This document shows positions 8,839 to 31,330 of a stretch of 64,000 nucleotides of DNA, one piece after another. Within the stretch, counting starts at the first letter, position 1; every line of letters begins with the position of its first letter. The notes beneath the pieces were generated by a model. The model saw only the letters and a program-made list of their open reading frames with translations, was not told where the DNA came from and searched no databases. Made by a program: the position numbers and the translations under genes. This stretch comes from Acidaminococcus fermentans DSM 20731 (lineage in GTDB: Bacteria; Bacillota; Negativicutes; Acidaminococcales; Acidaminococcaceae): positions 434,001 to 498,000 of the forward strand of contig NC_013740.1 of assembly GCF_000025305.1 (NCBI RefSeq), given 5' to 3'.

Positions 8839-8882
8839 TTTTAAGAAAAACGCAGCCCATATTTACAATTAAAATCTGAATG

Positions 8883-8912: not shown

Positions 8913-8976
8913 TTTGACTAAAGAGTCTATACACATGCTGACTGTCGAAGGGACAGCAGTCAAAGGGGTTGTATTT

Positions 8977-14900: not shown

Positions 14901-17900
14901 CACGTTCACCAGCAACGACGGCACCACTCCGGAAACGACTTTGAGCCTTAGTGATTTGGGCGCTGCCAGCACAGCAGACATGAATGCAGCGAAGGCAGCC
15001 GCATCGACTGAAGTCAAGGCTGGAACCAATGCATCGTTGGGGACGGTAGAGACCAATCAGACGGATCAGCATAAAATTTATACGGTCAATGTCGACAACC
15101 TGGGCTTGAAACAGAATGGCACGGCGGCTGGTACAGTCACGTTGGCTGATGGCATCAATTTTGCGGATGGAACCAATACGTCGGCCACGGTGTCGAATGG
15201 AAAGGTGACGTTTGACCTAAAGAAGGACATCACTAATATTGATACCATTACGGCAAGTAACTCCATTCAGGCAGGCAATGTCGAAGTTGGCAAGCAGGGG
15301 GCGGACAACAAGAACTACGTCACCGGATTGGAGAATAAGAATTGGACAGTCGGACAGACCACCTACGAGGCAGGCCGGGCGGCTACAGAAGATCAGCTGA
15401 AATCCGTCAGCGATAAAGTCGCAAGCGGTTTCCAGGTAACTGACGGTACGACCTCTGCCAATATCGGTGCCGACAAGAAAGTCACCTTCACGAATGGCAA
15501 TTATACGACCGCGAAGGTGACCCAGGCCACGGATGGGGCTAATGTTCAGTATGATATCAATACGGCCAAACTCACTACTGGTGCCAATGGCACGATAACT
15601 GCGCCGACAACTGACGGCGTAGCGACGGCAGCGAATGTAGCTGAGGCCATCAACAGTGCGGCTTGGAAAATCAAGGCCAACGATAATGATACTACTGCAA
15701 TCAAGGCTGGAACGACTGTCGGACTCAAGGCGGGCAACAACTTGACACTTTCCCAGAGTGGCACGGCTTTCACCTATGCACTGAAGGATGAGCTGACTGG
15801 TATCAAGAGCCTGACGACTGCTGCTCAGGATGGAGTCACTACGACTCTTGCCGCAAGTGGCGTGACAATTGCTTCGTCGGGTACTGGCAATAAGTCGGTC
15901 TCCTTGACTGCCAACGGCTTGAACAATGGTGGCAAGCAGATCACTGATGTGGCAAGCGGCGGCGATACAGACACCAATGCGGCCAATATCAGCGATGTCA
16001 AGCGTCTGGTGCAGGCTTCGGCTAGTGGTACGACTGAGACAGGCTTCAACGTCAAAGGCGATGATGTAACTGCTAAGAAGGTGAAACTTGGCAAGCAGCT
16101 TAATGTGGTAGGCGGAACCAATGATACCAGCAAGCTGTCGGATGGCAACATCGGTGTAGTAACTAAAGATGATGGACAAGGCAATGCTACCTTGACGGTA
16201 AAGCTGAATAAGAATATCAACCTTGACTCTGTGAAGGCTGGTAATACAACCCTGGATACCAATGGCTTGGCTATCTCGGGCGGCCCGACGATTGCAGCTG
16301 GCGGGATTAACGCTGGAGGCAAGACAATCACTGGCGTTGCTAATGGCGTTGGCGACAACGATGCCGTCAATATATCTCAGCTCAAAGCTGTTCAGTCGGA
16401 TATCAATGCAGGCTGGACAATCAAAGGCAAGGATACGGCGAATGCAGATGTAAGCGCCAATATCGGTAAGGGCAAGACCGTGACCTATGATAACGGCAAC
16501 TATACCAAGTCCGTGGTGACGAAGGATGACAGTACTGGCAATGCCACGGTGAAGGTGGATGTGACTACCGGCACTTTTGGCTCGGGAGCTGGCGACAAAG
16601 CTGGTACAGTCACTTCCACGGCTAAGGGCCTGGCAACGACCCAGGATGTGGCCAACGCCATCAACAGCGCAGCTATCAATGTAGTAGCCGATAATACGCC
16701 GGACAACAAGACCTCAGTCAAAGCCGGGGATACCATCCATTTTGCCAAGGATGGCAACCTGACTTTGGTGCAGAATGGTACTACCTTTACCTATGGACTG
16801 AATTCAGAAATCAGTATTTCCAAAGTCACTACGTCCGATGCGACGAATGGGTCCACGGTTCAGGATGCGAAGGGGATTACGACCACTGACGCCGCGGGCA
16901 ATACCTATATCCAGAACGGACAGGGCATTACCCTGACGTCTTCTGATAAGACCAAGTCTCCTGTGAAACTGACCAATACTGGCCTGAATAATGGCGGTAA
17001 TAAGATTACCGGAGTTGGAAAAGGTACAGATGATGCCGATGCAGTCAATGTAGCCCAGCTAAAAGAAGTCAATGACAAGGTGGGCAGCGGCTGGCAGATT
17101 GCCGGTAATGATGGACAGAAGGTCGCGGATATCGGTGCCGGCAAGAAGGTATCCTTCAAGACGGGCAGCCAGTATCTGACCGCTAACACAGAATCTGCCG
17201 GAACTGATGCAGCGAATGTGACCTATGGACTGAAGACCAAGGCACTGACGGCTGTGGATGGCAAAGTATCTGCCGTTGATACGGCAGAGGATGGTCTGGC
17301 TACCGCCAAGAACGTGGCGGAAACCATCAATCAGACGTACTGGACGGCGGCTTCCGGAACATTCGGCAGCGGCAGCCATACGGATGAAACGGCCAACCCT
17401 GTGGACAAACAAATTTCGGCCGGAGATACGGTAACCTTCAATGCCGGGAACAACCTGTCCCTGGTCCAGAACGGAGCTTCCTTCACCTATGGGCTCCAGG
17501 CGAATCTGACTGGCATGAATACCATTACCTTTACTCCGAGAAATGACGCTGACGGACATCCTATCAGTCTGGTCATCGGCAAGCAGAAAGACGGGGTAAG
17601 CAACGATGAAGGGTACTACATCACCGGTCTGGACAATACATCCTGGAACCAGTCCAACTATGTAAAGAACCGGGCGGCTACGGAAGCCCAGCTGGCTTCC
17701 GCCATTCAACAGGTGACCCTGGCTTCCCAGTCCGGCGGTTTCAAGCTGTCTGACGATAACAATAACGAAGTTTCCCAGGTACTGGGCCAGGCTATCGGAG
17801 TTGTAGGGGACAGCAATATTACCACTACTGCGGAAACGACGACTGCGGATCCCAATGGGCATATCAAAGTCAGCCTGAACAAGCACATCGATCTGGGTAC

Positions 17901-19656
17901 GGACGGATCTCTCCAGGCAGGCGGCGTAACGTTGAAGAACAACAGGGTCACCGTAGGAAACAATGGAATTGTAATCAGCAGCAGTGATTCAGAAAGAACG
18001 GTCAGCAATCTGAGCAATACCACTTGGGAGACAGCTAAAGTCAACCAGGAAGCATCGGCTGGCGGCTATAAGGGTTCCACCAAAGCTGCCACGGAAAGCC
18101 AGCTGGCAGAAGCTATCTCCACAGCTACTTCTACGGCTGCCCAGAATGAGCAACATATCAGAAATGGTGAGTACAGTGTCCAGACCATAAACAATGGGGA
18201 TGGATCGAAGTCTCAGGGAGTATCCATTGACATTATTACCGGAGATGGTTCCAAACCGGAAGCTGTCAAAGGACATGTGGTCATCAAAGATGTGGCCAAG
18301 GCCAGTGATTTGGGGAATGTAAGTGATCTACACGATACCCTGAAAAATGCCGATGGAAAAAAGAATGTCACCGGAGCTTTGAACAACTTGGATGACCGGG
18401 TAACTGGGCTGGATAACCGGATGGACAACATTTACACCACGGCCGGTCAGCATTCCTCTGTCAGCTCCGAGAGCAATATCGTTGTGGACCATTCTGCCAA
18501 AAATGAATCCGGCGGCACGGACTACAAATTGAGCCTGAACAGGGAAAAAATCGACTTGGACAAAGTGACCATCGAAGGCAAGAGCGGGGCTGTGACGGCC
18601 AAGACCGTGACGGCAGAAGAATACAAGGTGGGCAACAAGACCTACATCTCCAGCGACGGCCTGAACGCCAACAGCCAGAAGATCACCAATGTCCAGGCGG
18701 GCACGGCGGATACGGATGCGGCCAATGTGGGCCAGGTCCGGGAAGCCGATGAACAGCTGGCCGGAGGCATTGCACAGAATGCCCGGAACATCTCCCAGCT
18801 GGGCCGGGAAGTGGACAAACTGGATTCCCGGATCGACCGGGTGGGCGCCGGTGCTGCGGCTCTGGCCGCCCTCCATCCGGGAGCCTATGATCCCAACGAC
18901 AAAGTGGACTTCTCCGCCGGGTACGGCAACTACCGGGGCGCCAGCGCTGCGGCCGTGGGTATGTATTACCATCCCGATGAACGGACCATCCTGTCCATGG
19001 GGGTTGCCATGGGCGGCGGCGAAAACATGGTGAACGCCGGGGTTACCTGGAAACTGGGCCGGCGGACACCTGCTGCACCCCAGCCGGTACCGGTGAAAGC
19101 GGCTCCTGGGACTCCTGCCCTGGTACCTGTTTCCACGGCAGCGGCGGCACCGGTCCGTCCTGTGGAAACCGCACCGGCAGTGAGACCTGTGGTGGTACGG
19201 ACTTCCGTCCGGCCGGTGGAAACGGTGGCACTGGTGGCTCCTGCGGCCCGGGTACGGCCCGTACAGCCGGCTGTGGCTCCGGTCAGAACGGCGGACACCA
19301 ATGCCCAGCTGATGGAACTGCTGGCCCGGCAGACCGCCATCCTGGAGAAACTGTCGGAACAGAAAGCGGTTCCGGCGGCAGCACCGGCAGCGAGCGGAGA
19401 CGACCTGTTCACCGATGTGCCGGAAAACCACTGGGCCTATGAATGTGCCCTGAAGATGGAAAAGGCCGGGGTGCTGAAAGGCCTTGGCGGGCTCCAGGTG
19501 GAGGGGAATCCTCTCCTGACCCGGAAGGACTTCGCCCGGATCCTCTACACCGCCCTGAAGAACGGGGCCACCACCAACCCGGCCCTGAACAGTGACAACA
19601 GCCTGAACCGGATGGCCAGCGAGTTCCGGGGAGAATTGAAGATGGTGAAGGGATAA
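8977..19656 (+). CDS. giant YadA-type trimeric autotransporter adhesin with post-barrel SLH domain
   Basis: The protein has 3559 residues. Residues 1-25 form an extended signal peptide of type V secretion (MNRIFKVIFNRNRQLVQVVP), with the hydrophobic core and a cut near GYA-ADG at about 60. A coiled coil follows (about 80-208; NT-N-K-I heptads). YadA head beta-roll repeats (AVAIG, ALG, TAIG words) cover about 350-910 and 980-1165. A YadA stalk motif (RRIQNVAAGLVSASSTDAVN) is near residue 1420. Repeated stalk and ring modules run to about 3240, and the four-strand membrane anchor to about 3360. After the barrel come a Pro/Val linker, a short coiled coil and an SLH domain (FTDVPENHWAYECALKME at about 3480). 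In Negativicutes, SLH domains bind peptidoglycan, so the protein may link outer membrane and cell wall. The start at 8977 gives the canonical signal, with AAAGGGG upstream. Confidence 0.96.
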   Translation: MNRIFKVIFNRNRQLVQVVPEYAKNRGKEVSESRKGGVRGLAKVLLTFLATLMIASPGYAADGNSTGSGDTTYISDTNTEAQNIQALDKQVVKNAQDIAASKSTTDTNKSDIAANRADIEANKTSIDSNKTKISKNTSDIATNTTNISENKTAIADNKTAIDKNASAISTNTQKIAANTTNIANNTTAITSNKTSIAANASDITDLKDLANITDAGKTVIKKQAKQAVKVAATGNATVSTTGSEDDDSTLIYTINVANNGAISVGDTNLVSGGTMYTELRPTGGTYVLAGNTTAANLLALDTNLVNVVNALGLDVNDTTKSYTSKLNKYFKVNPKITTSTDGTTTTTTYAPDAAANGTNAVAIGPSAQAGESTTDATTSTTTVTGGTSSTAVGDSAKANGNQAVALGYGSEVLNTTDQSGKTTATISGSTAIGNGAKVNGATDAAAVGTSAQVNETATGGIAFGKNAVTGEDKGTVTVGDVTANVAAVGGENSVALGTSAKASGNTALALGKGAQVNNYTTQSGTTVTKTVNSGSTAIGSGAVVTGANDAVAFGSGAKVEGTGTNADDSLALGKSASVATAKDAMALGTSASVASGADNAIALGNGAKANTSNTTAIGYNASATGAGAVAIGENTSTSTEGGISIGSGTSVSGKSIVIGYATDNAGNAVKTESNNTDAVAIGNGAQANANDSISIGHQAGKDTAEGRTSGYGSLIAIGTNAGNNVKGMQNVALGSGAGSNVKSSYNVAIGSNAGSGINYAAAADSNPQNGYNISIGYEANYQSADANAKNIKESIAIGHSANAVSEATALGTGAAASGDKSMALGYNATAADTDSIALGDNASAGGGNIAIGSGSQAPAVASYDKGYLTGSTSVNGYISVGGTTSATGTTVLRRISNVADGAADQDAVTVAQLKQAYTNLEGTIKTTDNKITDTYTQSAIDSKISTVERKITASQTKYFSINPSSDTLTANVNNDGASTTGAADAMAIGPNATATSAKAVAIGNNVSASGKGSIALGTADNPATSTTVAAGGNTSANPHVTSAEGVNSVAIGTSAIAQTDNSVALGTRASVYTSDMTDKTTGTTMKVGQQSIAIGYQAETRNSNATSIGSDAKAYSNGSTAIGHGAYAQGTDAIVLGTSSTANGASSGILGKSNTVNGSNTYTVGSENKVNGNWGAVTYSGLYGSKNIVNPVSDTSGNTKHGMDSLFITGNSNTIGQGSYSDTVQNISILGNSNSVTGASSDEANAGTTANITVIGGNNEVTGRDGAGSDYMGKTWNQLTRTSIIGYGNKVNQKEATTSLANTQILGNDVTATLGNSVYLGTGSAAKNANSPDTDTLVKAETDAANAVDTTGMTDDEKTTALSDAKAKARYAVKLAAMKANKGSTAGTEVLNTDTTYDDGTSYTYAGSSPVGVVTVGKAGSERRIQNVAAGLVSASSTDAVNGSQLYALTRQIRFGGDNSSFGTTTADDQNVVARGSNETLNIIGGEKDTTKLTDNNIGVLADSTNNTLTVKLASNLEDLNTAQLGSGSGDSYKETIKLDGTGTTGGQMTLAGADGTVKTTLDTTGLTIANGPKFTSSGIDAASQKINHVTAGTDDADAANVGQVNAAAAEATTEVKAGTNASLGTVETSAADKHKIYTVNVDNLAVKAANGNASVALANGINFKNGTNTTSAVDASGNVTIDTKNLTLEANGTNKASVSMDGGINFKNGTNTTATVDTDGTVTISATHNKLDSASYTASKPSDSSNQTTVKLKDTDGNETTLNLTDTYTTVSKNTDHTISFKRNDGSNPVSISLDDLDGASNEALTKAAAKATTTVIKGTNVDSVDDDTTSADGHHIYKVNVSNLGVKVADGQKKSVALSEGLVFGNGTNTTASVGDNGAITFNVSNDAIKTQAKDAINMSAGSNVKVETTSTDGLSKTFTISATHNALKSATLTPKSNDVSTLTITGNDGDTASVDIKNTHLTVTKDSEAKTVTFTSNDGTTPETTLSLSDLGAASTADMNAAKAAASTEVKAGTNASLGTVETNQTDQHKIYTVNVDNLGLKQNGTAAGTVTLADGINFADGTNTSATVSNGKVTFDLKKDITNIDTITASNSIQAGNVEVGKQGADNKNYVTGLENKNWTVGQTTYEAGRAATEDQLKSVSDKVASGFQVTDGTTSANIGADKKVTFTNGNYTTAKVTQATDGANVQYDINTAKLTTGANGTITAPTTDGVATAANVAEAINSAAWKIKANDNDTTAIKAGTTVGLKAGNNLTLSQSGTAFTYALKDELTGIKSLTTAAQDGVTTTLAASGVTIASSGTGNKSVSLTANGLNNGGKQITDVASGGDTDTNAANISDVKRLVQASASGTTETGFNVKGDDVTAKKVKLGKQLNVVGGTNDTSKLSDGNIGVVTKDDGQGNATLTVKLNKNINLDSVKAGNTTLDTNGLAISGGPTIAAGGINAGGKTITGVANGVGDNDAVNISQLKAVQSDINAGWTIKGKDTANADVSANIGKGKTVTYDNGNYTKSVVTKDDSTGNATVKVDVTTGTFGSGAGDKAGTVTSTAKGLATTQDVANAINSAAINVVADNTPDNKTSVKAGDTIHFAKDGNLTLVQNGTTFTYGLNSEISISKVTTSDATNGSTVQDAKGITTTDAAGNTYIQNGQGITLTSSDKTKSPVKLTNTGLNNGGNKITGVGKGTDDADAVNVAQLKEVNDKVGSGWQIAGNDGQKVADIGAGKKVSFKTGSQYLTANTESAGTDAANVTYGLKTKALTAVDGKVSAVDTAEDGLATAKNVAETINQTYWTAASGTFGSGSHTDETANPVDKQISAGDTVTFNAGNNLSLVQNGASFTYGLQANLTGMNTITFTPRNDADGHPISLVIGKQKDGVSNDEGYYITGLDNTSWNQSNYVKNRAATEAQLASAIQQVTLASQSGGFKLSDDNNNEVSQVLGQAIGVVGDSNITTTAETTTADPNGHIKVSLNKHIDLGTDGSLQAGGVTLKNNRVTVGNNGIVISSSDSERTVSNLSNTTWETAKVNQEASAGGYKGSTKAATESQLAEAISTATSTAAQNEQHIRNGEYSVQTINNGDGSKSQGVSIDIITGDGSKPEAVKGHVVIKDVAKASDLGNVSDLHDTLKNADGKKNVTGALNNLDDRVTGLDNRMDNIYTTAGQHSSVSSESNIVVDHSAKNESGGTDYKLSLNREKIDLDKVTIEGKSGAVTAKTVTAEEYKVGNKTYISSDGLNANSQKITNVQAGTADTDAANVGQVREADEQLAGGIAQNARNISQLGREVDKLDSRIDRVGAGAAALAALHPGAYDPNDKVDFSAGYGNYRGASAAAVGMYYHPDERTILSMGVAMGGGENMVNAGVTWKLGRRTPAAPQPVPVKAAPGTPALVPVSTAAAAPVRPVETAPAVRPVVVRTSVRPVETVALVAPAARVRPVQPAVAPVRTADTNAQLMELLARQTAILEKLSEQKAVPAAAPAASGDDLFTDVPENHWAYECALKMEKAGVLKGLGGLQVEGNPLLTRKDFARILYTALKNGATTNPALNSDNSLNRMASEFRGELKMVKG

Positions 19657-19688
19657 AAAACGGATAAAAGAGTCGGGAGCCAAAGGAT

Positions 19689-19708
19689 AAATTTGCAGGC
19701 AAATTTTT
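19689..19708 (+). terminator. AAATTTGC hairpin after the autotransporter gene
   Basis: AAATTTGC (19689-19696) and GCAAATTT (19699-19706) form a perfect stem with a two-base loop, followed by TT. A longer relative (AAATTTGCC/GGCAAATTT) is at about 25363-25382. Confidence 0.55.
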
Positions 19709-19727
19709 GAAGGTGTAAATCGAATCT

Positions 19728-19806
19728 GTAGGGGATCCACGCCGGGGAGCCCGCCGATTTGCCGGCAGTCTGTGTATTTTGCGGGGCGCCGGGCCTGCGC
19801 CCCTAC
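19728..19806. repeat. palindromic GTAGGGG...CCCCTAC intergenic repeat, copy A
   Basis: The element of about 79 bp starts GTAGGGG with CACGCCGGGG and ends GCGCCGGGCCTGCGCCCCTAC-like, so the ends are imperfect inverted repeats. A full relative lies at 34777-34856 and a half copy at 30427-30453. It carries no coding capacity and resembles REP/MITE-class repeats. Confidence 0.7.
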
Positions 19807-19856
19807 GGTTTTACACAATCAAAAGAATCCGACTTGCCAGGCGGATTCTATCCTGA

Positions 19857-19888
19857 GGCTTCAGACTTCAGACTCCCGACTTCCGACC
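19857..19888. repeat. GTC-spaced microrepeat, inverted orientation
   Basis: GGCTTCAGACTTCAGACTCC followed by CGACTTCCGACC is the reverse complement of the array at 5724-5755. It again sits directly before a terminator. Confidence 0.45.
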
Positions 19889-19890
19889 AG

Positions 19891-19920
19891 ATGCGGTTGC
19901 TTATGCAACCGCATCTTTTT
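19891..19920 (+). terminator. intrinsic terminator ahead of the DUF3298 gene
   Basis: ATGCGGTTGC pairs with GCAACCGCAT (19905-19914), followed by CTTTTT. The extended -10 TGTTATACT begins only a few bases later (TATACT at 19925-19930), so terminator and promoter are fused. Confidence 0.8.
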
Positions 19921-22901: not shown

Positions 22902-23362
22902 TTACAGGAAATCTGGACCATCTGGACCGGCTGGCCGGTCAGCTCACCGGACCGGTGAAAAAAGCCCTGGAACTGCTGGCGGAACGGGACGTGACGGAAC
23001 TGCCGGTGGGGAAAACGCCCCTGGCCGGTGAGGACATCTTCGCCAGTGTCAATGAATATGAAACGGAACCGGTGGAAGACCGGCGGCCGGAAAAACATTT
23101 CCAGTACATCGACATCCAGGTGCTGGGCGCCGGCCGGGAATCCATCGGGTACACGGATGTGGAAAACGTCGGCAGCCTGACGGAGGACCGCCGGGAAAAG
23201 GACGATGTGGTGTTCTATGGCAGCACCCGAAAAGAGAACTTTGTGAAGCTGGAGAAAGGAGATTTCGCCATTTTCTTCCCCTGGGAAGTCCATCGGCCCA
23301 ACTGCTGGTTTGGAGAGGGACCGGAAACGGTGAAGAAGATCGTGGTGAAGGTACGGGCGTAA
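22898..23362 (+). CDS. YhcH/YjgK/YiaL-family protein (DUF386)
   Basis: This 154-residue cupin-like protein has the family pattern: an early GNLDHL, EKHFQYIDIQVLGAGRESIGY in the middle, FAIFFPWEVHRPNCW and a final KKIVVKV. The histidines of EKHFQYID and EVHRP are the likely metal ligands. Family members are linked to sugar-acid metabolism (for example sialic acid or gulonate pathways) and may be sugar anomerases. Pairing with the amidohydrolase suggests a small catabolic unit whose substrate I cannot name. Confidence 0.85.
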   Translation: MITGNLDHLDRLAGQLTGPVKKALELLAERDVTELPVGKTPLAGEDIFASVNEYETEPVEDRRPEKHFQYIDIQVLGAGRESIGYTDVENVGSLTEDRREKDDVVFYGSTRKENFVKLEKGDFAIFFPWEVHRPNCWFGEGPETVKKIVVKVRA

Positions 23363-23366
23363 GTTG

Positions 23367-25304
23367 ATGCGGAAAAGGAAGCTGCTGTGGGGAGGGGTCC
23401 CCGCTCTGGTGCTGCTGGTTTGTACGGCGGTCCAGGCGGCACCTCAGAAAATCGTGATTACGGCCACCCGGAACGCCACCGGGGAGGACCGGGTGCCGGC
23501 CGGGGTGACGGTGCTGACGCCAAAAGACTGGGAAAAGACCGGGGCCCTGACGGTACGGGATGCCCTGGAGCGGGTCCCGGGCCTGAACGTGGTGGAAGGG
23601 GGCATGACCGGCAATAAGGTGTCCCTGCGGGGTATGGGCAATGGCAGTACCCTGATCCTGGTGGACGGACGGCGACTGGCCGGCGAAGATTCGCCCCAGA
23701 CCATGAATGTGTACGAACTGAACCGGCTGAACCTGGATCGGGTGCGACGCATCGAAGTGGTGCGGGGTGCGGCTTCAGCCATGTACGGCAGTGATGCCAT
23801 GGGTGGCATCATCCAGATTTTCACCCGGAAGCCCGGCCGGGCGGGGGGCTATGCCGGCACCCGGATCGGTACCCGGGAAAAAACGGTGTACGGTGGCGTG
23901 TCCACGGGCAAGGTGGGCAAGCTGGACCTTTCCGTCGACGCCAAGCTCCAGGACCTGCGGAAAATGACCAACGGGGGTTATTCCAATTTCTACGGACCCC
24001 GGCGGTTCCTGGACATTACGGGGACGTATCGGTTCGACAGCAGTCGCAGCCTGGAATTCGGGGCTTCGTACCTGCGGGAGCAGTTGCGCCAGGATACGGC
24101 GGCGGGAAAGCTGCCCATGCACGGCTACAGCTCCGTGGCCAGCCGGGAATGGAACGACAACAACCGACAGGACTACCACCTGCGCTACAGCGGTAGCGAT
24201 GCCCGGAATGATTACAATGTACTGTTGTACACCAACCGGCTGGGAAAGGAGTCCCACACGGCCACGCCCCTGCTGGGACGGGATTTCGACCACAGTGAAT
24301 ACCGGACCTGGGGCGCGGAATTCAAAAATGCATATACGGCCAGTGACCGGCACATCCTGACCTACGGGGCGGAATACAGGAAGGAAAAGGCCGGGGGCAC
24401 CCGCATGGGCCGGGGCACCGGGGACTACCGGCTGGAATGGTCCGGCGGCCAGGCCAAGCCCTGGTCTTCGGCCCAGGTGGAGACCAGCGGGGCCTACCTG
24501 CAGGATGAGTGGGACCTGGGCGGCAATGTGTATTTCGTGCCCGGGCTCCGGTACGACCATTATCAGAGCTTCGGTGGCCGCTGGTCGCCCAGGGCCGGGC
24601 TCACCTGGAAGATGACACCGGGCCTGTCCGTGAAGACCAATTACGGCTGGGGCTACCGGGCGCCCACCATCTTCGAGCTGTACGCCCGTATGGAACGGGC
24701 CATGGGCATGGTATACGAGGTGGACGGCAATCCGGACCTGCGGCCGGAAAAATCCCGGGACTTCGACTTCGCCCTGGAGATGCAGCGGGGCAAGAGCAGC
24801 GGCAGCGTGCGGTATTTCCACAATAAAATCGACGATATGATCCGGACCCATCTGCTGGGATTCTACGGCGGCCGGCTGCGGTATCAGTACGAAAATATCG
24901 ACAAGGCACAGACCCAGGGGGTGGAGGCCGAGGGGAAGTACGCCTTCGACCGCCACTGGAGCCTGGGGGCCGGGTACACGTATCTGGATGCGCGGAACCG
25001 GAAGGACCACAGCCGGCTGACGGGGGACGCCCGCACCAGCGGCAATGTGGAACTTTCCTGGAAGGACGGCGGGGCCCATCCCTGGACCCTGACCCTGGAC
25101 AACAGGTGGTACCGGGATTACCTGAACGACGACGGCAGGCAGTATACGTACAGCCTGACCGGGTTCCACGCCGTGAAGGACCTGGGGCACCGGACCACCC
25201 TGCAGCTGGGGGTGGACAACCTGTTCGACAAGAAGTTCGGACGGGAGGACCTGATGGGGCTGTACGGCCGCACCTGGGAAGCCGGGGTCGAGCTGAAATG
25301 GTAA
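23367..25304 (+). CDS. TonB-dependent outer-membrane receptor
   Basis: The protein has 645 residues. A signal peptide ends near VQA-APQ (about residue 23). The TonB box is KIVITATRN, the plug domain covers about 40-150 (VRDALERVPGLNVV, SLRGMGNGSTLILVDG, RIEVVRGAASAMYGSDAMGGIIQI), and the 22-strand barrel ends GVELKW. YRAP and NPDLRPE boxes match the FRAP/NPNL region common in heme receptors, but no histidine lies between them, so heme specificity is not assured. The gene looks intact, whereas the ABC and ExbB/ExbD genes downstream are broken. No strong Shine-Dalgarno; the ATG lies 5 bp after the previous stop. Confidence 0.92.
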   Translation: MRKRKLLWGGVPALVLLVCTAVQAAPQKIVITATRNATGEDRVPAGVTVLTPKDWEKTGALTVRDALERVPGLNVVEGGMTGNKVSLRGMGNGSTLILVDGRRLAGEDSPQTMNVYELNRLNLDRVRRIEVVRGAASAMYGSDAMGGIIQIFTRKPGRAGGYAGTRIGTREKTVYGGVSTGKVGKLDLSVDAKLQDLRKMTNGGYSNFYGPRRFLDITGTYRFDSSRSLEFGASYLREQLRQDTAAGKLPMHGYSSVASREWNDNNRQDYHLRYSGSDARNDYNVLLYTNRLGKESHTATPLLGRDFDHSEYRTWGAEFKNAYTASDRHILTYGAEYRKEKAGGTRMGRGTGDYRLEWSGGQAKPWSSAQVETSGAYLQDEWDLGGNVYFVPGLRYDHYQSFGGRWSPRAGLTWKMTPGLSVKTNYGWGYRAPTIFELYARMERAMGMVYEVDGNPDLRPEKSRDFDFALEMQRGKSSGSVRYFHNKIDDMIRTHLLGFYGGRLRYQYENIDKAQTQGVEAEGKYAFDRHWSLGAGYTYLDARNRKDHSRLTGDARTSGNVELSWKDGGAHPWTLTLDNRWYRDYLNDDGRQYTYSLTGFHAVKDLGHRTTLQLGVDNLFDKKFGREDLMGLYGRTWEAGVELKW

Positions 25305-25307
25305 GGA

Positions 25308-25342
25308 AAACAGGGGGTGTGGAAGTTCCACCCCCCTGTCAT
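25308..25342 (+). terminator. hairpin after the TonB receptor gene
   Basis: ACAGGGGG and CCCCCTGT flank TGTGG/CCAC to form a strong stem, but no T run follows. It belongs to the same hairpin family as 8801 and 31984. Confidence 0.45.
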
Positions 25343-25393
25343 ACGTCATACGCCGAAGGATAAAATTTGCCGGGGCAAATTTTAACAGAATAT

Positions 25394-25515
25394 ACCCTCC
25401 GGATACCTGGTTCGGACGTTCCTACGCATAAAAACGGAATTTGCGAAATCATGCGTAGGGTCTACCCGTAAGGGGAGACCGTCGCCAGGTCACCCGGAGG
25501 GTCATATTTTTTTTT
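25394..25515 (+). ncRNA. multi-helix structured RNA candidate ending in a T run
   Basis: Nested perfect helices can be read directly. P1 is ACCCTCCGG (25394-25402) with CCGGAGGGT (25494-25502). P2 is ACCTGG (25405-25410) with CCAGGT (25485-25490). GACG (25415-25418) pairs with CGTC (25480-25483). P3 is CCTACGCAT (25421-25429) with ATGCGTAGG (25451-25459). P4 is GTCT-A-CCC (25460-25467) capped by a GTAA tetraloop and closed by GGG-G-AGAC. A run of nine or more T residues follows at 25507. It may be an elaborate terminator of the receptor transcript, a riboswitch-like leader or an independent RNA. I cannot match it to a known family. Confidence 0.5.
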
Positions 25516-25542
25516 GACATTTTTTCTATGTGATGGTATAGT
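25514..25542 (+). promoter_or_regulatory. consensus promoter with palindromic -10
   Basis: TTGACA (25514-25519) and TATAGT (25537-25542) are separated by exactly 17 bp. ATGGTATA-GT-TATACCAT (25533-25550) is a perfect palindrome over the -10 and is a candidate operator. Confidence 0.75.
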
Positions 25543-25552
25543 TATACCATGT

Positions 25553-25574
25553 TTAGTTAGATTACACTAACTTA
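25553..25574. promoter_or_regulatory. TTAGTTAG-N6-CTAAC box 1
   Basis: TTAGTTAG-N6-CTAACTTA lies just downstream of the promoter. Two more boxes of the same form and spacing lie at 25618 and 25986. The half-site resembles the TTAGGTTAG half of DtxR/IdeR sites, with a wider spacer, so an iron- or manganese-dependent regulator is a guess. Confidence 0.5.
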
Positions 25575-25617
25575 TCGAGAATGACAAATGAATAAGTTAC
25601 TAGGTTATGCCACTGTA

Positions 25618-25638
25618 TAGTTAGGAGAAACTAATTTA
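25618..25638. promoter_or_regulatory. TTAGTTAG-N6-CTAAC box 2
   Basis: TAGTTAG-N6-CTAATTTA overlaps the Shine-Dalgarno (AGGAG) of the fragment beginning at 25638. Confidence 0.4.
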
Positions 25639-25975
25639 TGGGTAAAAAATGGATGGTATTGGGGGCGCTCTGCCTGCTGGCCCTGGGCCTGGGCAGCACT
25701 TGGATTTCACCGTACGGGATCTGGTGAGCTTTGGACGTGTACCCTACCAGAACTGGCACGGGGGCAATACGGAGAAAGATGACCGGGTGGTGGACTGAGC
25801 CATGGAAGTCAGCGACCGGATCGTAGTCATCAAGGACGGGAAAAAGTATGCGGAAGGGCCACCGGAAGAAATTATCACGCCCCGGATGATGAAGGAAGTC
25901 TACCAGGTGGACTGTGATGTGGTCAAACTGCCGGGACGGAAACGACCCGTCCTGGTGTATGGAGAAATCCGGTAA
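25638..25975 (+). pseudogene. remnant of an iron-siderophore/heme ABC transporter (FecCD-FecE type)
   Basis: The first 29 codons read like the N terminus of a FecCD permease (a hydrophobic LGALCLLALGLGS then ISP) and stop at 25727. In another frame, 25706-25795 encodes a piece of a FecE/FhuC-type ATPase (TVRDLVSFGRVPY), then a TGA, then 25802-25975 encodes the ATPase C terminus (SDRIVVIKDGKKYAEGPPEE, KEVYQVDCDVV). Walker A, the signature motif and Walker B are all missing, so at least two large deletions have joined these ends. The position between a TonB receptor and exbB fits a former iron or heme uptake operon. Confidence 0.75.
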
Positions 25976-25985
25976 ATAGTACCTA

Positions 25986-26008
25986 TTAGTTAGCTAAAAC
26001 TAACGTTA
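25986..26008. promoter_or_regulatory. TTAGTTAG-N6-CTAAC box 3
   Basis: TTAGTTAG-N6-CTAACGTTA lies 24 bp before the exbB start codon, so the box sits in the exbB leader. Confidence 0.5.
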
Positions 26009-26031
26009 AAAATACAGGAGGAACGACGTCT

Positions 26032-26684
26032 ATGAATCTGTTTGCAGCAGGAATCGATTATTTCATCAAAGGGGGCTGGGTCATGTGGCCCCTGCTGGTC
26101 TGCTCCATCGCTGCACTGGCCATTGGGGTGGAACGGACCCTGTACTTCCGGAAAGCGGACAGCGGACGGGGATTCACCGAGAAGTTCTGCACGTATATCG
26201 AAGAAAACAACTGGGATGCGGCCAAACAGCTGGCGGATACCACCCGGGGAGAAATTGTCAAACTGGCCACCATTGTCATGGCAGCCATGGAAATTATGAG
26301 TTCCTGGAAAATTTCATCAGCTACCGGGCAGAGCGGGCCCTGGACAAATTTGAACAGAACCTGCCCTATTTGAACATCATTGTGACGTTGGCACTGGTAC
26401 TGGGGCTTCTGGGCACGGTTACCCGGATGATGGGTGCCTTCAACCACATTACCCAGCGGATGGAAAATCCCATGGGGGTCACGGCCGGCCTGGCAGAAGC
26501 TTTGATCACCACCGTATTCGGACTGTGCATTTTCATTGTGGCCGTGTGCTTCCATGGATACTTTGAACGGCGGATGAAAATCATCACCCTGAACATCGAG
26601 GAAATGGGCAATACCCTGCTGGAAGCCGTGCGCAAGAAGGAAACCTGCAGCGTATGCTGCCATCCGGAACGGAGGCGGGCATGA
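26032..26684 (+). pseudogene. exbB: frameshifted exbB (MotA/TolQ/ExbB proton-channel family)
   Basis: The first part (26032 to about 26300) encodes an ExbB N terminus with its first membrane segment (GGWVMWPLLVCSIAALAIGVERTLYF). The reading then shifts frame. The second part encodes the rest (FEQNLPYLNIIVTLALVLGL, GLLGTV, GVTAGLAEALITTVFGLCIF). The switch is near 26290-26305 around GGAAATTATGAG and needs one base of indel. Without the shift the product would be a full-length ExbB of about 217 residues. AGGAGG precedes the ATG at 26032. The stop overlaps the next ATG (ATGA), as in intact exbB-exbD pairs. A sequencing error cannot be excluded. Confidence 0.8.
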
Positions 26685-27286
26685 TCAAGCTGAAGAAGCG
26701 GGGGAATCTGTCACCGGCTGCCACCACAAAGGAGCAGACCGCCATGTTCGCCTTCGGGAAGAAATACCTGGATGCCCTGGGGTACAAGCGGCTCAGCTTC
26801 TGTCACTGGGCCCGGAACAACCGGGAACGGAGCCTGTATAACACCCTGGCCCGGGGCGGAGTCCATCTGTTCCCCTTCGGCTGCGGGGCTGGAGGCCATG
26901 TGGACGGTATTTCCACCATGCTCCACCGGACCTTGCCCATGTACGAAAAAATGGTATCCGCCGGTCAGAAACCCCTTATGTTCCTCCAGCAGGAATCGCC
27001 TTATGCCCGGATCGCTGACCGGATCCAGGCTCAGCTGAACCAGTGCCGTCTGGATTTGGAGGACTTGGCCCGTATGGACAGCCGTCTTTCTGACCTCCAG
27101 TGGCTGGGTGACCTATGGGAAGAGTATGGGCTCTGGAAGCACAATGGATATCTGTATCATCTTACCGAAGCTGGACAGTTCTGGGAAGTGAACATGACCC
27201 AGACGGTCCTGGAATGTGTGGAACTGCTCATGGAAGGAGCGGAACAGGGGAAAGCAGCGGAGGCAAGGGTGGCGGAGCAGGGCTAA
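26681..27286 (+). pseudogene. exbD start fused to the C-terminal part of HutW/ChuW-like heme-utilisation protein
   Basis: The first residues, MIKLKKRG, look like an ExbD N terminus coupled to exbB through ATGA. No ExbD membrane segment or periplasmic domain follows. Instead, from about residue 25 the sequence (LGYKRLSFCHWARNNRERSL, HLFPFGCGAGGHVDG, AGQKPLMFLQQ) resembles the C-terminal half of radical-SAM heme-degrading HutW/ChuW proteins. The radical-SAM CxxxCxxC domain is absent. The simplest explanation is a deletion that joined exbD codon 8 or so to the middle of hutW, removing exbD, any tonB and the catalytic half. The frame is intact for 201 residues but is unlikely to be functional. 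Confidence 0.65.
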
Positions 27287-27491
27287 CGCTACCATTACTG
27301 CTGCCGCGTAACCCAGGCGCACGATATGAATCCAGCTGTTTTGTCAGCGGGGATTTTCGAAAGCGACATGTACCATTTAGTACTATGCCGCATTCGAAAA
27401 TCCCTGCTTTCGCGCATCTGACCTACTCTGACATCTTTTTTAGCGTGAGGCAGGGCATCTCAAATTTTCTTGAAAAATTTTAGAAAACCTG
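27287..27491. other. intergenic region with long imperfect hairpin
   Basis: GGGATTTTCGAA (27350-27361) and TTCGAAAATCCC (27393-27404) are perfectly complementary and separated by 31 bp, with AGC/GCT extending the stem. There is no strong T run. It separates the decayed uptake locus from the tRNA operon. Confidence 0.4.
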
Positions 27492-27520
27492 TTGACATTT
27501 TGTACCATCTTTTATATAAT
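27492..27520 (+). promoter_or_regulatory. consensus promoter of the tRNA operon
   Basis: TTGACA (27492-27497), a 17 bp spacer and TATAAT (27515-27520) form a perfect sigma-70-type promoter 33 bp before the first tRNA. Confidence 0.9.
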
Positions 27521-27552
27521 AACACTCGCAGCGCATGAGCGTCGCAAGAAAT

Positions 27553-27627
27553 TCCCCGATAGCTCAATGGTAGAGCACTCGACTGTTAATCGAGTTGTTG
27601 TAAGTTCGAGTCTTACTCGGGGAGCCA
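27553..27627 (+). tRNA. tRNA-Asn(GTT)
   Basis: The 75-nt cloverleaf has TCCCCGA/TCGGGGA acceptor arms, anticodon GTT at 27585-27587 in the loop CTGTTAA, T-loop GTTCGAGT and an encoded CCA. Confidence 0.97.
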
Positions 27628-27630
27628 AGT

Positions 27631-27705
27631 GGCCGGATGGTCAAGCGGTTAAGACACCGCCCTTTCACGGCGGTATCGGGGGTTCGATTCCCCCTCCGGT
27701 CACCA
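27631..27705 (+). tRNA. tRNA-Glu(TTC)
   Basis: The 75-nt cloverleaf has GGCCGGA/TCCGGTC acceptor arms, anticodon TTC at 27664-27666 in the loop CTTTCAC, and an encoded CCA. It starts three bases after the tRNA-Asn CCA. Confidence 0.97.
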
Positions 27706-27713
27706 CTTCTTTT

Positions 27714-27789
27714 GGGCGCTTAGCTCAGCTGGGAGAGCGTCTGCCTTACAAGCAGAATGTCAGCAGTTCGATCCTGTTAGCGCCCACCA
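27714..27789 (+). tRNA. tRNA-Val(TAC)
   Basis: The 76-nt cloverleaf has GGGCGCT/AGCGCCC acceptor arms, anticodon TAC at 27747-27749 and an encoded CCA. Confidence 0.97.
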
Positions 27790-27839
27790 TATTTTTTTTA
27801 CCCTTTTTTGCTTATAATCAAGTTGGCCTGTTTGTGCGA

Positions 27840-27916
27840 CGGGGCGTAGCTCAGTTTGGTAGAGCACCTGCCTTGGGAGCAGGGGGTCGTAGGTTCAAAT
27901 CCTGTCGCTCCGACCA
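27840..27916 (+). tRNA. tRNA-Pro(TGG)
   Basis: The 77-nt cloverleaf has CGGGGCG/CGCTCCG acceptor arms (one G-U), anticodon TGG at 27874-27876 and an encoded CCA. The 50-bp gap before it contains a TATAAT at 27813-27818 but no good -35. Confidence 0.97.
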
Positions 27917-27927
27917 ATTTTCACTTT

Positions 27928-28001
27928 GCGGGTGTAGCTCAATGGTAGAGCCCTAGCCTTCCAAGCTAGTTACGTGGGTTCGATTCCCATCACCCGCTCC
28001 A
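27928..28001 (+). tRNA. tRNA-Gly(TCC)
   Basis: The 74-nt cloverleaf has GCGGGTG/CACCCGC acceptor arms, anticodon TCC at 27960-27962 and an encoded CCA. Confidence 0.97.
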
Positions 28002-28009
28002 TTTTATTT

Positions 28010-28086
28010 GGCCCCGTAGCTCAGCTGGATAGAGCAACGGCCTTCTAAGCCGTGTGTCGAGTGTTCGAATCACTCCGGGGTCACCA
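28010..28086 (+). tRNA. tRNA-Arg(TCT)
   Basis: The 77-nt cloverleaf has GGCCCCG/CGGGGTC acceptor arms, anticodon TCT at 28044-28046 and an encoded CCA. Its 3' 44 nt recur with four differences at 30278-30321, which makes it a candidate attachment site. Confidence 0.97.
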
Positions 28087-28097
28087 CTTGAAACCAC

Positions 28098-28145
28098 AGA
28101 AGCTGTGAGAAAATGAGAAATCATTTTTCACAGCTTCTTTTTTAT
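28098..28145 (+). terminator. terminator of the tRNA operon
   Basis: AGAAGCTGTGA pairs with TCACAGCTTCT, and the stem continues with AAAATGA/TCATTTT around a GAAA loop. A TTTTTT run follows. A remnant of its 3' arm and T run is found after the tRNA fragment at about 30333-30352. Confidence 0.85.
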
Positions 28146-28157
28146 TTTATTTTTTTC

Positions 28158-28214
28158 ATATTGACAATCATCTATATTATGCTATACTGGTATCAGATAG
28201 ATAATAATCAATAT
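28158..28214. promoter_or_regulatory. promoter and inverted-repeat operator of the permease/ArsR operon
   Basis: TTGACA (28161-28166) and TATACT (28183-28188) have a 16 bp spacer. The promoter is bracketed by two arms (28158-28175 and 28197-28214) that are reverse complements at 15 of 18 positions, with core CATCTAT against ATAGATA. This would suit a dimeric ArsR/SmtB repressor encoded by the second gene. Confidence 0.65.
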
Positions 28215-28231
28215 GATGGAGGCAGAAAGAA

Positions 28232-29230
28232 ATGTGGACATTTATACAAAATGAAATCCTGGGAATGCAGTGGCTGAACCGTCTGATTGGGGCCGGTCTT
28301 GGGGCGGCAGGGATGGACCTGGGGTCTCGGCTGGGGGGCAGTGTGCAGTTTTTCTTGTACGATGTGATCAAGATCTCTGTATTGCTGGTAGTGCTGATTT
28401 TCTGTGTCTCCTATATCCAGAGCTACTTCCCGCCGGAACGAAGCCGACAGATCCTGGGCCGATTCCATGGGTTGGGTGCCAATCTGATTGGGGCCCTTCT
28501 GGGAACGGTGACACCGTTCTGCTCCTGCTCCTCCATTCCCCTTTTCATGGGATTTACCAGCGCCGGCTTGTCCCAGGGGGTTACCTTTTCTTTCCTGATT
28601 TCTTCTCCCATGGTAGATCTGGGGAGCCTGGTACTGCTGATGGGAGTATTCGGTTATAAAATCGCCCTGGCCTATGTGGTGATGGGACTGGTGATTGCCG
28701 TGGCCGGCGGGACTTTGATTGAACATCTCCATATGGAGGATCAGGTGGCGGATTTCATTCGGCAGGCCCGGATAGAAACCAGCCTGGCTCCGGAACATCT
28801 GACGGTCGGGCAGCGGACCGCTTTTGCCCGGGAGCAGGTGGAAAACACCTTCCGGAAAGTCTTTCCCTATATTCTCCTGGGGGTGGGCATCGGGGCAGTG
28901 ATCCATGAATGGGTTCCGGAACATCTGGTGACGGCTGTACTTGGGAGTCGGAACTCCTTTGGAGTGGTGCTGGCCACACTGGTGGGGGTACCCATGTATG
29001 CGGACATTTTCGGCACCATACCGGTGGCGGAGGCATTGCTGGGAAAAGGAGCCCAGCTGGGGACGGTACTGAGCTTCATGATGGCGGTGACCACCCTGAG
29101 CCTGCCCTCCATGATCATGCTGGGCAAGGCGGTGAAACCCAAACTGTTGCGGACGTTTGTGGCCATCTGTACGGCGGGAATCATTGCCGTAGGATATGGA
29201 TTCAATCTGTTCCAGGCCTGGCTGCTGTAA
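28232..29230 (+). CDS. UPF0718/ArsP-like permease
   Basis: This 332-residue polytopic membrane protein has about eight hydrophobic segments in two halves. The cysteine-rich TPFCSCSSIPLFMG motif (about residues 89-102) and GVPMYADIFGTIPV in the second half are typical of the DUF318 permease family. That family includes ArsP, which exports trivalent organoarsenicals. With an ArsR-type repressor and a small redox disulfide protein downstream, export of a thiophilic or metalloid compound is likely, but the exact substrate is not shown. GGAGG lies upstream of the ATG. Confidence 0.85.
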   Translation: MWTFIQNEILGMQWLNRLIGAGLGAAGMDLGSRLGGSVQFFLYDVIKISVLLVVLIFCVSYIQSYFPPERSRQILGRFHGLGANLIGALLGTVTPFCSCSSIPLFMGFTSAGLSQGVTFSFLISSPMVDLGSLVLLMGVFGYKIALAYVVMGLVIAVAGGTLIEHLHMEDQVADFIRQARIETSLAPEHLTVGQRTAFAREQVENTFRKVFPYILLGVGIGAVIHEWVPEHLVTAVLGSRNSFGVVLATLVGVPMYADIFGTIPVAEALLGKGAQLGTVLSFMMAVTTLSLPSMIMLGKAVKPKLLRTFVAICTAGIIAVGYGFNLFQAWLL

Positions 29231-29242
29231 GGAGGTGAAGAC

Positions 29243-29554
29243 ATGAATGCAATGGACGCGGCAGTAATCTGCAAGGCCCTGGGAGATTCCAACCGGATCC
29301 GAATCGTGGAGCTGCTGACCCAGGGGGAACTGTGTGGCTGCAAACTGCTGGAGTATTTTAACATTACCCAGCCTACCCTGTCCCACCATATGAAGGTACT
29401 GGCAGAATGTGGGTTGATCTGCAGCCGGAAGGAATGGAAGAATACCTATTATTCCCTGAACTGTGAAACTCTCACGGCATTCAGGAATTATATAGGAACG
29501 CTGACCTGCCGAAAAGGGAGAGCCTGCAGCTGCATGGATGAAAGCGGAAGATAG
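29243..29554 (+). CDS. ArsR/SmtB-family repressor
   Basis: This 103-residue winged-helix protein has ALGDSNRIRIVELL at the start and the recognition helix around TQPTLSHHMKVL. The ELCGCKL sequence matches the ELCxC metal-binding site of ArsR. Extra cysteines near the C terminus (CRKGRACSC) could also bind metal. It probably represses its own operon through the inverted repeat at 28158-28214. AAGGAGGTG precedes the ATG. Confidence 0.92.
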   Translation: MNAMDAAVICKALGDSNRIRIVELLTQGELCGCKLLEYFNITQPTLSHHMKVLAECGLICSRKEWKNTYYSLNCETLTAFRNYIGTLTCRKGRACSCMDESGR

Positions 29555-29580
29555 AAAGCAATAAGAAAGGATGAGAAAAT

Positions 29581-29811
29581 ATGGTTATTCAAGTCATGGG
29601 CGGAGGATGCAGCAAATGTGAAACGCTGCTGGAAAATGTCAAGGAAGCGGTGGCCCATACGGGGAAAACGGCGGAAATCCAATATGTTACGGATTTTGCC
29701 ATCATTGCCGGCAAGGGAATCATGAGTACTCCAGCTCTGGTTATTGATGGAAAGGTGGTTTCATCTGGACGCGTACTGAAGACCAAGGAAATCGAATCAC
29801 TCTTAGGTTGA
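29581..29811 (+). CDS. small thioredoxin-like redox disulfide protein
   Basis: This 76-residue protein matches the MTH895-type redox-active disulfide family. It has an early GGGCSKCETL with a CxxC pair at residues 9-12, and MSTPALVIDGKVVSSGRV with the cis-Pro loop. It often accompanies the DUF318 permease and an ArsR regulator and is presumed to reduce or shuttle the substrate. It shares the operon with the two preceding genes. Confidence 0.88.
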   Translation: MVIQVMGGGCSKCETLLENVKEAVAHTGKTAEIQYVTDFAIIAGKGIMSTPALVIDGKVVSSGRVLKTKEIESLLG

Positions 29812-29815
29812 AAAA

Positions 29816-29960
29816 TGATCTGTGTCCTGGGAGCAGGACTGAATCCGGAGCTGCTTGGGCAGGAAGATGCTCCAAAGATACAGGATGGAGTATGCTTCCT
29901 GCCTTTCCTGTTGCATTCATAGTATAACGGCCACGTGACACGTTATAAGGCGTCTGCCAT
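29816..29960. other. gene remnant region
   Basis: A 35-codon frame at 29816-29923 starts with an ATG a few bases after the thioredoxin stop and has no recognisable family or Shine-Dalgarno. I treat it as non-coding or a remnant. Confidence 0.25.
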
Positions 29961-30014
29961 TCAGAAAGCCTATGAAGATAACCGCAAGCACAGTTATCTT
30001 CATAGGCTTTCTGA
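29961..30014. repeat. perfect 22-bp inverted repeat
   Basis: The arms at 29961-29982 and 29993-30014 are exactly complementary over 22 bp with a 10-base loop (CGCAAGCACA). No T run follows, so it is not a standard terminator. It borders the IS30-like remnant. Confidence 0.8.
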
Positions 30015-30041
30015 GTAGATCAGCATTTCTCAATTATGTAC

Positions 30042-30250
30042 GTAAATGCTTTACAGGAGATGGCTGGTCATTGGACGCCTGTGTAGGATGCGCTGTCCTC
30101 AATGATGACTTAACTGGTCAGCAGATCTCCGATGTGGAGACCTGGTGTAACTGCCTCCCAAGAAAGGTCCTGGGGCATAAAAAACTGATGAAATATTCGA
30201 GGAGAAAATAGACCGAATCCACCAGGCTGCTGCCTGGTGGAGGGTGCCCA
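30042..30250 (+). pseudogene. IS30-like transposase remnant
   Basis: One frame reads GDGWSLDACVGCAVLN, then LTGQQISDVETWCNCLPRKV and LGHK. A one-base shift at the AAAAAA run (about 30179) continues KTDEIFEEKIDRIHQ. The block PRKVLG-K-T-DEIFEE resembles the end of IS30-family transposases, and DACVG resembles their middle. The catalytic core is deleted. No terminal repeats are recognisable. Confidence 0.5.
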
Positions 30251-30277
30251 ACTTGTAATTGCGATTCACCTGCTAAA

Positions 30278-30321
30278 TTCTAAGTCGTGTGTCGAGCGTT
30301 CGAATCGCTCCGGGGTCACCA
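30278..30321 (+). other. tRNA-Arg 3'-half duplicate (possible attachment-site repeat)
   Basis: The 44 bases match the 3' end of tRNA-Arg (28043-28086) from the anticodon loop through CCA, with four differences. Two of these keep the T stem paired (GTG/CAC became GCG/CGC). After the CCA there is a shortened copy of the downstream terminator. It could be the right junction of an inserted segment 28087-30321 or the leftover of a second tRNA-Arg gene. Confidence 0.75.
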
Positions 30322-30426
30322 ATTGAAAACAAATTTTCACAGCTTCTTTTTTGTTACTGGCCAACGGTCACGAGCCACTGGCCGATGGAAATCGATTTTG
30401 CAAATTGATTTTAAACAGCATGAACC

Positions 30427-30453
30427 GTAGGGGGCGCAGGCCCGGCGTCCCGC
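30427..30453. repeat. half copy of the GTAGGGG palindromic repeat
   Basis: GTAGGGGGCGCAGGCCCGGC and GTCCCGC match the reverse complement of the right end of copy A (19728-19806). Confidence 0.6.
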
Positions 30454-30483
30454 ATAACACCTGGACAAACGCCGACCGTTGAC

Positions 30484-30519
30484 AGGGGGATGTGAAATTT
30501 TTTCACCCCCCCTTTTTTT
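30484..30519 (+). terminator. terminator-like hairpin with T run
   Basis: GGGGGATGTGAAA pairs imperfectly with TTTCACCCCCC, followed by a TTTTTTT run. It lies directly after a GACCGTTGAC microrepeat. Confidence 0.65.
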
Positions 30520-30532
30520 GTATGATTGCATT

Positions 30533-30561
30533 TCGACAATTATAAGTAATTGTGATAGAAT
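30533..30561 (+). promoter_or_regulatory. promoter of the NiaR-like gene with palindromic spacer
   Basis: TCGACA (30533-30538) and TAGAAT (30556-30561) are 17 bp apart. The spacer region is the palindrome ACAATTA-TAAG-TAATTGT (30537-30554), a likely operator, possibly for autoregulation. Confidence 0.6.
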
Positions 30562-30659
30562 ACATATGAATGCTCTAGGAATGACACCCTGCCGTACAGC
30601 CATTGCGCATCTGTTCCCGGCGCAGGGAATCCAAAAGAAATCTTAGGGGGAGGGGTATG

Positions 30660-31193
30660 ATGAAGAATCAAGAACGCAGAAAGAAAATCATGGAGATCTT
30701 ACGGAACAGCAACGGTCCGGTGACCGGGGATCAGCTGGCCAAGGACCTGAATGTGTCCCGGCAGGTGATCGTCCTGGATATGGCCCTTTTGCGGAGCGCC
30801 GGTACGGCCATTGTTTCCACCCGCCGGGGTTACCAGATCAATGGACGGAGCCTGACCATGGATTTCGAATGCCGGTACAAAGCCATGGATACGGACAGTG
30901 CCCGGGATGAAATGAACATCGTGGTGGACAACGGGGGCATGATCGTCAGCATTACCCTGGTGCCGGATTTCTGCGGTCCCATCCAGGCATTCCTGAACCT
31001 GAAGAACCGGCGGGATGTGAACCAGTATCTGGAGAATTTCCGCAAGTACAACATTCCGCTGATCGCCACCCTGTCCCAGGGGGTCCATACTCTTTCCGTA
31101 GCGGCGGATTCCCAGGAAGAACTGGAAGCCATCCGGGATGGACTGGCGGAAGGCGGTTTCCTGGTGGAAGAAACGGACGGAGAAAAGAAGTAA
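30660..31193 (+). CDS. NiaR-like (HTH_11 + 3H-domain) transcriptional regulator
   Basis: The protein has 177 residues. A winged helix (about 1-60, GDQLAKDLNVSRQVIVLDMA) is followed by a domain that aligns with the 3H domain of NiaR/YrxA niacin-responsive repressors (IVVDNGGMIVSITLVPDF, LNLKNRRDVNQYLENFRK, LSQGVHTLSVAA). The positions I expect to hold metal-binding histidines are mostly replaced (for example PDF where HPV is usual), and only the VH of QGVH remains. Ligand binding may therefore differ. Of two ATGs, the second (30660) has the better spacing from GGAGG. The target genes are not adjacent. Confidence 0.75.
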   Translation: MKNQERRKKIMEILRNSNGPVTGDQLAKDLNVSRQVIVLDMALLRSAGTAIVSTRRGYQINGRSLTMDFECRYKAMDTDSARDEMNIVVDNGGMIVSITLVPDFCGPIQAFLNLKNRRDVNQYLENFRKYNIPLIATLSQGVHTLSVAADSQEELEAIRDGLAEGGFLVEETDGEKK

Positions 31194-31199
31194 GCAGGA

Positions 31200-31243
31200 G
31201 CGCATTTTACAGGCATGGTTTTCCTGTAAAATGCGTCTTTTTT
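31200..31243 (+). terminator. terminator after the NiaR-like gene
   Basis: CGCATTTTACAGG (31201-31213) pairs with CCTGTAAAATGCG (31223-31235), followed by TCTTTTTT. Confidence 0.88.
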
Positions 31244-31330
31244 ATGTCCTGCCCCTTTTCTTTCCGGGCAAAAATGGATATAATATCTTTCGACTGAATA
31301 GATAGGAATCGCTGATGGTAAGGAGGATGT

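Follow-up and report, generated by a model that had tools for sequence, protein, structure and literature searches.

The window analysed here is a 64,000-bp stretch (positions 434001-498000) of the single 2,329,769-bp contig of Acidaminococcus fermentans DSM 20731 (genome coded G000); strain VR4T of this species is a pig gut isolate (PMC3035267). Within the window, a 2.2-kb island lies between the 3' end of a complete tRNA-Arg(UCU) gene and a displaced copy of that end. The following features were delimited:

28010-28086, + strand: complete tRNA-Arg(UCU) gene (ARAGORN; Rfam 66.9 bits), whose 3' 44 nt (28043-28086) are the proximal repeat copy (attL) by repeat comparison
28096-28146, + strand: intact intrinsic terminator on the island side, belonging to a terminator family dispersed in the genome (fold -23 kcal/mol, z -5.6)
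28156-28216, + strand: imperfect 25-bp inverted repeat that overlies the promoter of the operon (TTGACA at 28161, TATACT at 28183-28188), a putative ArsR operator
28232-29230, + strand: arsP-like permease of 332 aa with a TPF-CSC motif (PF03773, ArsP_1, 5.5e-65)
29243-29554, + strand: ArsR-family regulator of 103 aa (HTH_5/PF01022, 3e-14; NF033788, 83 bits, cut-off 55)
29581-29811, + strand: small thioredoxin-like protein of ArsE/MTH895 type, 76 aa (Thioredoxin_3, PF13192, 4.5e-26; TIGR00412, 89 bits, cut-off 62)
29961-30014, no strand assigned: perfect 22-bp inverted repeat with a 10-nt loop and no T run (fold -37 kcal/mol, z -9.9)
29972-30211, + strand: 79-aa ORF with a remnant of an IS30-type transposase that has lost its start and catalytic middle (two-sequence comparison)
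30278-30321, + strand: displaced tRNA-Arg 3' end starting in the anticodon loop at TTCTAA (attR; repeat comparison)
30322-30355, + strand: degenerate terminator copy, about 26 nt shorter and without a stable stem (repeat comparison; fold -3 kcal/mol)
30356-30660, + strand: resident downstream flank, in part common to the tRNA-Arg downstream flank of A. fermentans WCA-389-WT-5B (sequence comparison), holding a dispersed repeat

The original prediction, read from the letters of the DNA, had proposed that the last 44 nt of the tRNA-Arg recur at 30278-30321, followed by a shortened copy of the tRNA terminator, and that a permease/ArsR/thioredoxin operon, a perfect 22-bp inverted repeat and an IS30-like remnant lie in between. 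Each of these parts was recovered. The segments 28043-28086 and 30278-30321 were identical at 41 of 44 nt, and the match extended to 54 nt at 91%, the similarity of the two copies continuing past the tRNA into the terminator. When the tRNA plus its terminator was used as a query against the 2.33-Mb genome, the copy at 30278-30321 stood third among the matches listed, the query itself being counted (E 4e-15). By a crude uniform-base estimate, 5.5e-15 chance matches of 41/44 would be expected per genome, a figure that serves as a yardstick only since tRNA genes are mutually similar. The copy at 30278 has no tRNA 5' half and was not called as a tRNA by ARAGORN or Rfam; over 27400-31300, Rfam at gathering cut-offs returned six tRNAs and nothing else. 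The two copies agree over the initial 7 nt of the core (TTCTAAG), and two of the three differences form a compensatory T-stem pair, which is T-A in the complete gene and C-G in the displaced copy. The C-G pair was also present in both tRNA end copies of a related genome (G005, see below). Given that 3 of the 44 nt differ, either the event is old or the two copies come from different lineages.

The terminator part of the repeat was compared by alignment and folding. Positions 28118-28146 and 30327-30355 were 86% alike, with about 26 nt, including one stem arm, gone from the distal copy, and the fold weakened from -23 to -3 kcal/mol. This part is weaker evidence than the tRNA part because the terminator (28098-28146) belongs to a dispersed family, represented by at least 39 of the 46 genome matches listed (the self-match and both strands of palindromes counted; 40 of 61 candidates scored). 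A consensus terminator scan recovered neither the tRNA terminator nor the 22-bp hairpin (1 site, against a mean of 3.3 in shuffled sequence); both probably fail its loop and T-tail criteria, and folding was used in its place. When the island was removed and its flanks were joined in a script, a complete tRNA-Arg was obtained. We infer that the island could by now hardly be lost without cost, because excision would leave a whole tRNA but a broken terminator behind. Further downstream, positions 30340-30525 are a dispersed repeat with at least 45 further partial matches in the genome (40 of 188 candidates scored); many matches were also found in G007 and G003 (defined below) and none in G001, G002, G004, G006 and G008.

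All three genes of the operon gave Pfam matches, the permease scoring 219.9 bits against PF03773, above the Pfam gathering cut-off of 32.3. No NCBIfam equivalog model exceeded its cut-off for the permease, and the SaoE and SO_0444 Cu/Zn models were far below theirs. The promoter is of sigma-70 type with 11 of 12 matches; 8 promoter-like sites were found in 27400-30700, against a mean of 3.1 in shuffled sequence. A motif resembling the inverted repeat over this promoter was recognised by eye upstream of arsR-first operons in G001, G008, G025, G019 and G011 (5 of the 8 other upstream stretches) and not in three upstream stretches of G002. As in the ArsP-family permease operons described in PMC4435449, the permease has the universal CSC motif preceded by TPF (cluster 2 of that work) with ArsR adjacent; the operon differs from those presented there in that none of its three genes is an arsB, acr3 or arsC. 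Within the genus, close ArsP relatives (70-73% identity) were found in G001, G002 (two) and G008, only weak matches in G006, and none in G003, G004, G005 or G007. In G002, one of the operons keeps this gene order and adds a gene of the low-molecular-weight phosphatase/ArsC type (PF01451); the 11-kb stretch around it held no tRNA and, by eye, no integrase. Seven of eight ArsP loci of relatives had no tRNA in the stretch fetched; in G011, a tRNA-Thr lies about 3 kb away. In the ArsP tree, the place of the window protein inside its 8-row group was not resolved, so the tree favours neither a vertical nor a lateral origin. A distant blastn search of island DNA against plasmids returned 18 records at 60-80% identity, 14 of them under a feature named permease, and none of the 18 covered 80% of the island query. 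The G+C content of the island (50.3%, against 57.5% for the window and 55.9% for arsP) was not counted as evidence.

Downstream of the operon, the arms of the 22-bp inverted repeat (29961-29982 and 29993-30014) are perfect, and the structure is possibly an end-of-operon hairpin. The 79-aa ORF that overlaps it has no Pfam or NCBIfam match, though two of its stretches matched residues 102-160 (3e-11) and 318-343 (6e-9) of an intact 361-aa transposase of G024 in a two-sequence comparison. That transposase has HTH_38 and rve domains, and the name IS30 was taken from annotations. The C-terminal similarity of the remnant continues, by eye, in another frame to about 30250; with no catalytic core, the ORF is not a complete IS30 transposase.

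No integrase was found among the island ORFs or their Pfam matches, as had been anticipated, and the same search gave no relaxase, coupling protein or type IV secretion system (T4SS) gene. No attP arm was recognised in the island. When the integrase of the G005 element described below was used as a query against the window's genome, five matches were obtained; the four of these that were listed are 27-32% identical and fall outside the window. The G005 relaxase gave one match, to its helicase part only.

In order to look for an empty site, the locus was compared with those of relatives. Over 32-40 kb, the closest relatives of the window were a contig of A. fermentans WCA-389-WT-5B (G007, 90-92% identity), a contig of A. 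massiliensis (G003, 88-89%) and G005 (83-85%). Both G007 and G003 have a single tRNA-Arg, one terminator (by eye) and no operon, the arrangement expected if the island had been inserted. Their 3H-regulator gene begins 369 bp (G007) or 413 bp (G003) after the tRNA, and in the window the same gene follows the distal copy. The tRNA-Arg(UCU) loci of nine relatives (seven of the same genus and two from other genera of the family, in stretches of 6.5-10.5 kb) each hold one complete tRNA-Arg(UCU), and the two complete tandem genes that would have told against the prediction were seen in none of them. G006 was left out of this set, its matches to the tRNA cluster being on separate contigs. In G001, G002, G004 and G008 other sequence stands next to the tRNA, and downstream flanks vary among relatives. 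Among the genomes searched, the island was found in the window's genome only.

Two other regions of the window differed among the same relatives. Positions 23000-26850 (a TonB-dependent receptor and neighbours) were 92-99% identical to G005 per 500 bp; outside them, identity to G005 was 71-84% to the left and 78% at 27000-27500, and inside them G007 and G003 were mostly 65-82% identical where aligned. On these identities, the region looks like a recent exchange. Positions 8700-19900 are absent at the locus in G005 and G007, where the points at about 8.7 kb and 19.9 kb lie within about 1.3 kb and about 0.1 kb of each other; G003 aligns with the window from 15899, near the end of its fetched stretch.

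An occupied site was found in G005 (G005:C6:69800-88200), where a 16.7-kb element lies between tRNA-Arg and a 47-nt repeat that matches the tRNA 3' end perfectly; the 3H gene comes next. Among the proteins of this element are a tyrosine integrase (PF00589), a relaxase of MobF type (NF041492, 155 bits against a cut-off of 100), a coupling protein of TrwB/TraD type and a regulator, together with a type ISP restriction-modification protein that istA/istB-type genes separate from its C-terminal domain. Eleven proteins of the element were scanned against Pfam and none gave a VirB4-like match. According to a 2017 review (PMC5704250), none of the canonical integrative and mobilizable elements (IMEs) then known had a MobF relaxase. 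The G005 element resembles the island in its target gene, in the start of its displaced end (within 2 nt of that in the window, the distal copies matching at 51 of 52 nt) and in the gene downstream, and differs in carrying the integrase, relaxase, coupling protein and split type ISP gene, and no arsP operon. Apart from the tRNA end and the 3H region, blastn at E 1e-3 showed no DNA common to the two.

Related elements were found at the same tRNA in two other families of the class. In G042 (G042:C7:1-19900), an element bounded by tRNA-Arg(UCU) and by a perfect repeat of the tRNA end, 65 bp long and starting 1 nt before TTCTAA, carries relatives of three G005 proteins: the integrase (44%), the relaxase (37%) and the coupling protein (32%); five ORFs of at least 200 aa inside the repeats gave no VirB4 match. 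In G056 (G056:C1:1650000-1729900), three truncated tRNA-Arg ends lie 26.6, 35.5 and 43.1 kb from the complete gene, have 44, 38 and 40 of 44 nt identical and start at TTCTAA or 1 nt before it. A related integrase (42%) lies between the first and second ends, and another, more distant at 26%, is next to the complete tRNA; the locus is apparently a tandem array of integrated elements. In G047, a related integrase (45%) is near a fragment that by eye resembles the end of another tRNA. More distant integrases (28-31% identity) stand directly 3' of tRNA-Arg(UCU) in G021 and G037, with no second tRNA-Arg copy within the 14-kb stretches. Six peptide patterns of the G005 integrase found no match in viral contigs. 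Crossover sites centred on the anticodon are a recognised class (PMC4383910).

Taken with the empty sites in G007 and G003 and the occupied site in G005, the repeat supports what had been predicted, namely the footprint of an integration at a tRNA 3' end, and of this footprint we are confident. The island is probably a decayed integrative element of the cis-mobilizable (CIME) type, in which the att sites were kept and the integrase and transfer genes lost, while the surviving cargo has a promoter of its own and a putative ArsR operator. We are less confident that the operon was the original cargo. Within this reading, a true att pair that the ArsP operon entered later, for example by homologous or IS-mediated recombination, is a serious though minority possibility. 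The operon occurs in several relatives, such as G002, away from tRNAs and (by eye) integrases; association with a tRNA is thus not the rule for it, and it may have come independently of the element. In the window the IS30 remnant adjoins it. Against late entry, the operon showed no insertion boundary of its own, and no IS copy was seen to its left.

The other variant concerns the founding element, which might have been not a mobilizable element like that of G005 but a phage or some other carrier of an integrase. The distant integrases directly 3' of tRNA-Arg(UCU) in G021 and G037, and the 26% one in G056, are consistent with such a founder, which we nevertheless consider somewhat unlikely. The near-coincident starts and the 51/52 agreement of the window and G005 distal copies speak for a G005-like founder, but weakly, because most of the matched sequence is conserved tRNA. 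A decayed tandem duplication, in which a second tRNA-Arg and terminator were copied and the operon and IS30 insertions then replaced the 5' half, would account for a similarity that takes in the terminator besides the tRNA, but is highly improbable: the copy begins in the anticodon loop, at most 2 nt from the point where the displaced ends of G005, G042 and G056 begin, a single tRNA-Arg(UCU) stands at all nine of the relatives' loci compared, and the terminator family is dispersed.

Under the preferred reading of a decayed integrative element, a tyrosine-integrase element would have inserted into the 3' half of tRNA-Arg(UCU), with the crossover in or beside the anticodon loop. The element's own 3' half would have rebuilt the tRNA, and the resident 3' half would have been pushed downstream to where it now lies, at 30278. 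Later deletions, together with insertion and decay of the IS30 element, may then have removed the integrase and any transfer genes, leaving a CIME-like relic of attL, a self-contained operon and attR. An arsenical or related thiol-reactive compound would probably release ArsR from its operator, whereupon the operon would be induced and the compound exported.

CIMEs are described as elements that keep their att sites and have lost their integration and transfer genes, the classical ones of S. salivarius measuring 1.2-13 kb (PMC5704250, PMC7563491). The island agrees with this description in having both attL and attR (41/44), about 2.2 kb of cargo and, among its ORFs, neither an integrase nor a relaxase, coupling protein or T4SS gene; it differs in standing alone and not in tandem with a full element, and the likeness is one of sequence. 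Descent by deletion from an integrative and conjugative or mobilizable element would fit the IME-like element at the same site in G005, yet the island has no residual transfer gene and has no DNA in common with that element outside the tRNA end. It is also like the tDNA islands of Islander, as these are set out in PMC4383910, with a complete tRNA at one end, a displaced 3' fragment in the right orientation at the other and an anticodon-centred crossover, but an integrase gene is required there and none was found here. Among the papers listed by a search on integrative and conjugative elements of Acidaminococcus, none dealt with this locus by its title and abstract opening. A relic island at a tRNA is a known kind of thing, and this locus is probably a new case of it.

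More broadly, the anticodon loop of tRNA-Arg(UCU) might be a class-wide docking site for a family of mobilizable elements with tyrosine integrase, MobF relaxase and TraD/TrwB-type coupling protein genes, as in G005 and G042, with the island a worn relic that could still be mobilized in cis and spread an arsenical operon between gut bacteria; as a whole, this proposal is doubtful. At this locus, an integration footprint without an integrase, guessed from raw sequence, was borne out by empty and occupied sites in relatives. In this class of bacteria, integration at the tRNA-Arg(UCU) gene is recurrent, and a small operon for metalloid efflux can become fixed next to a tRNA operon, the intact terminator of which is now on the side of the island.
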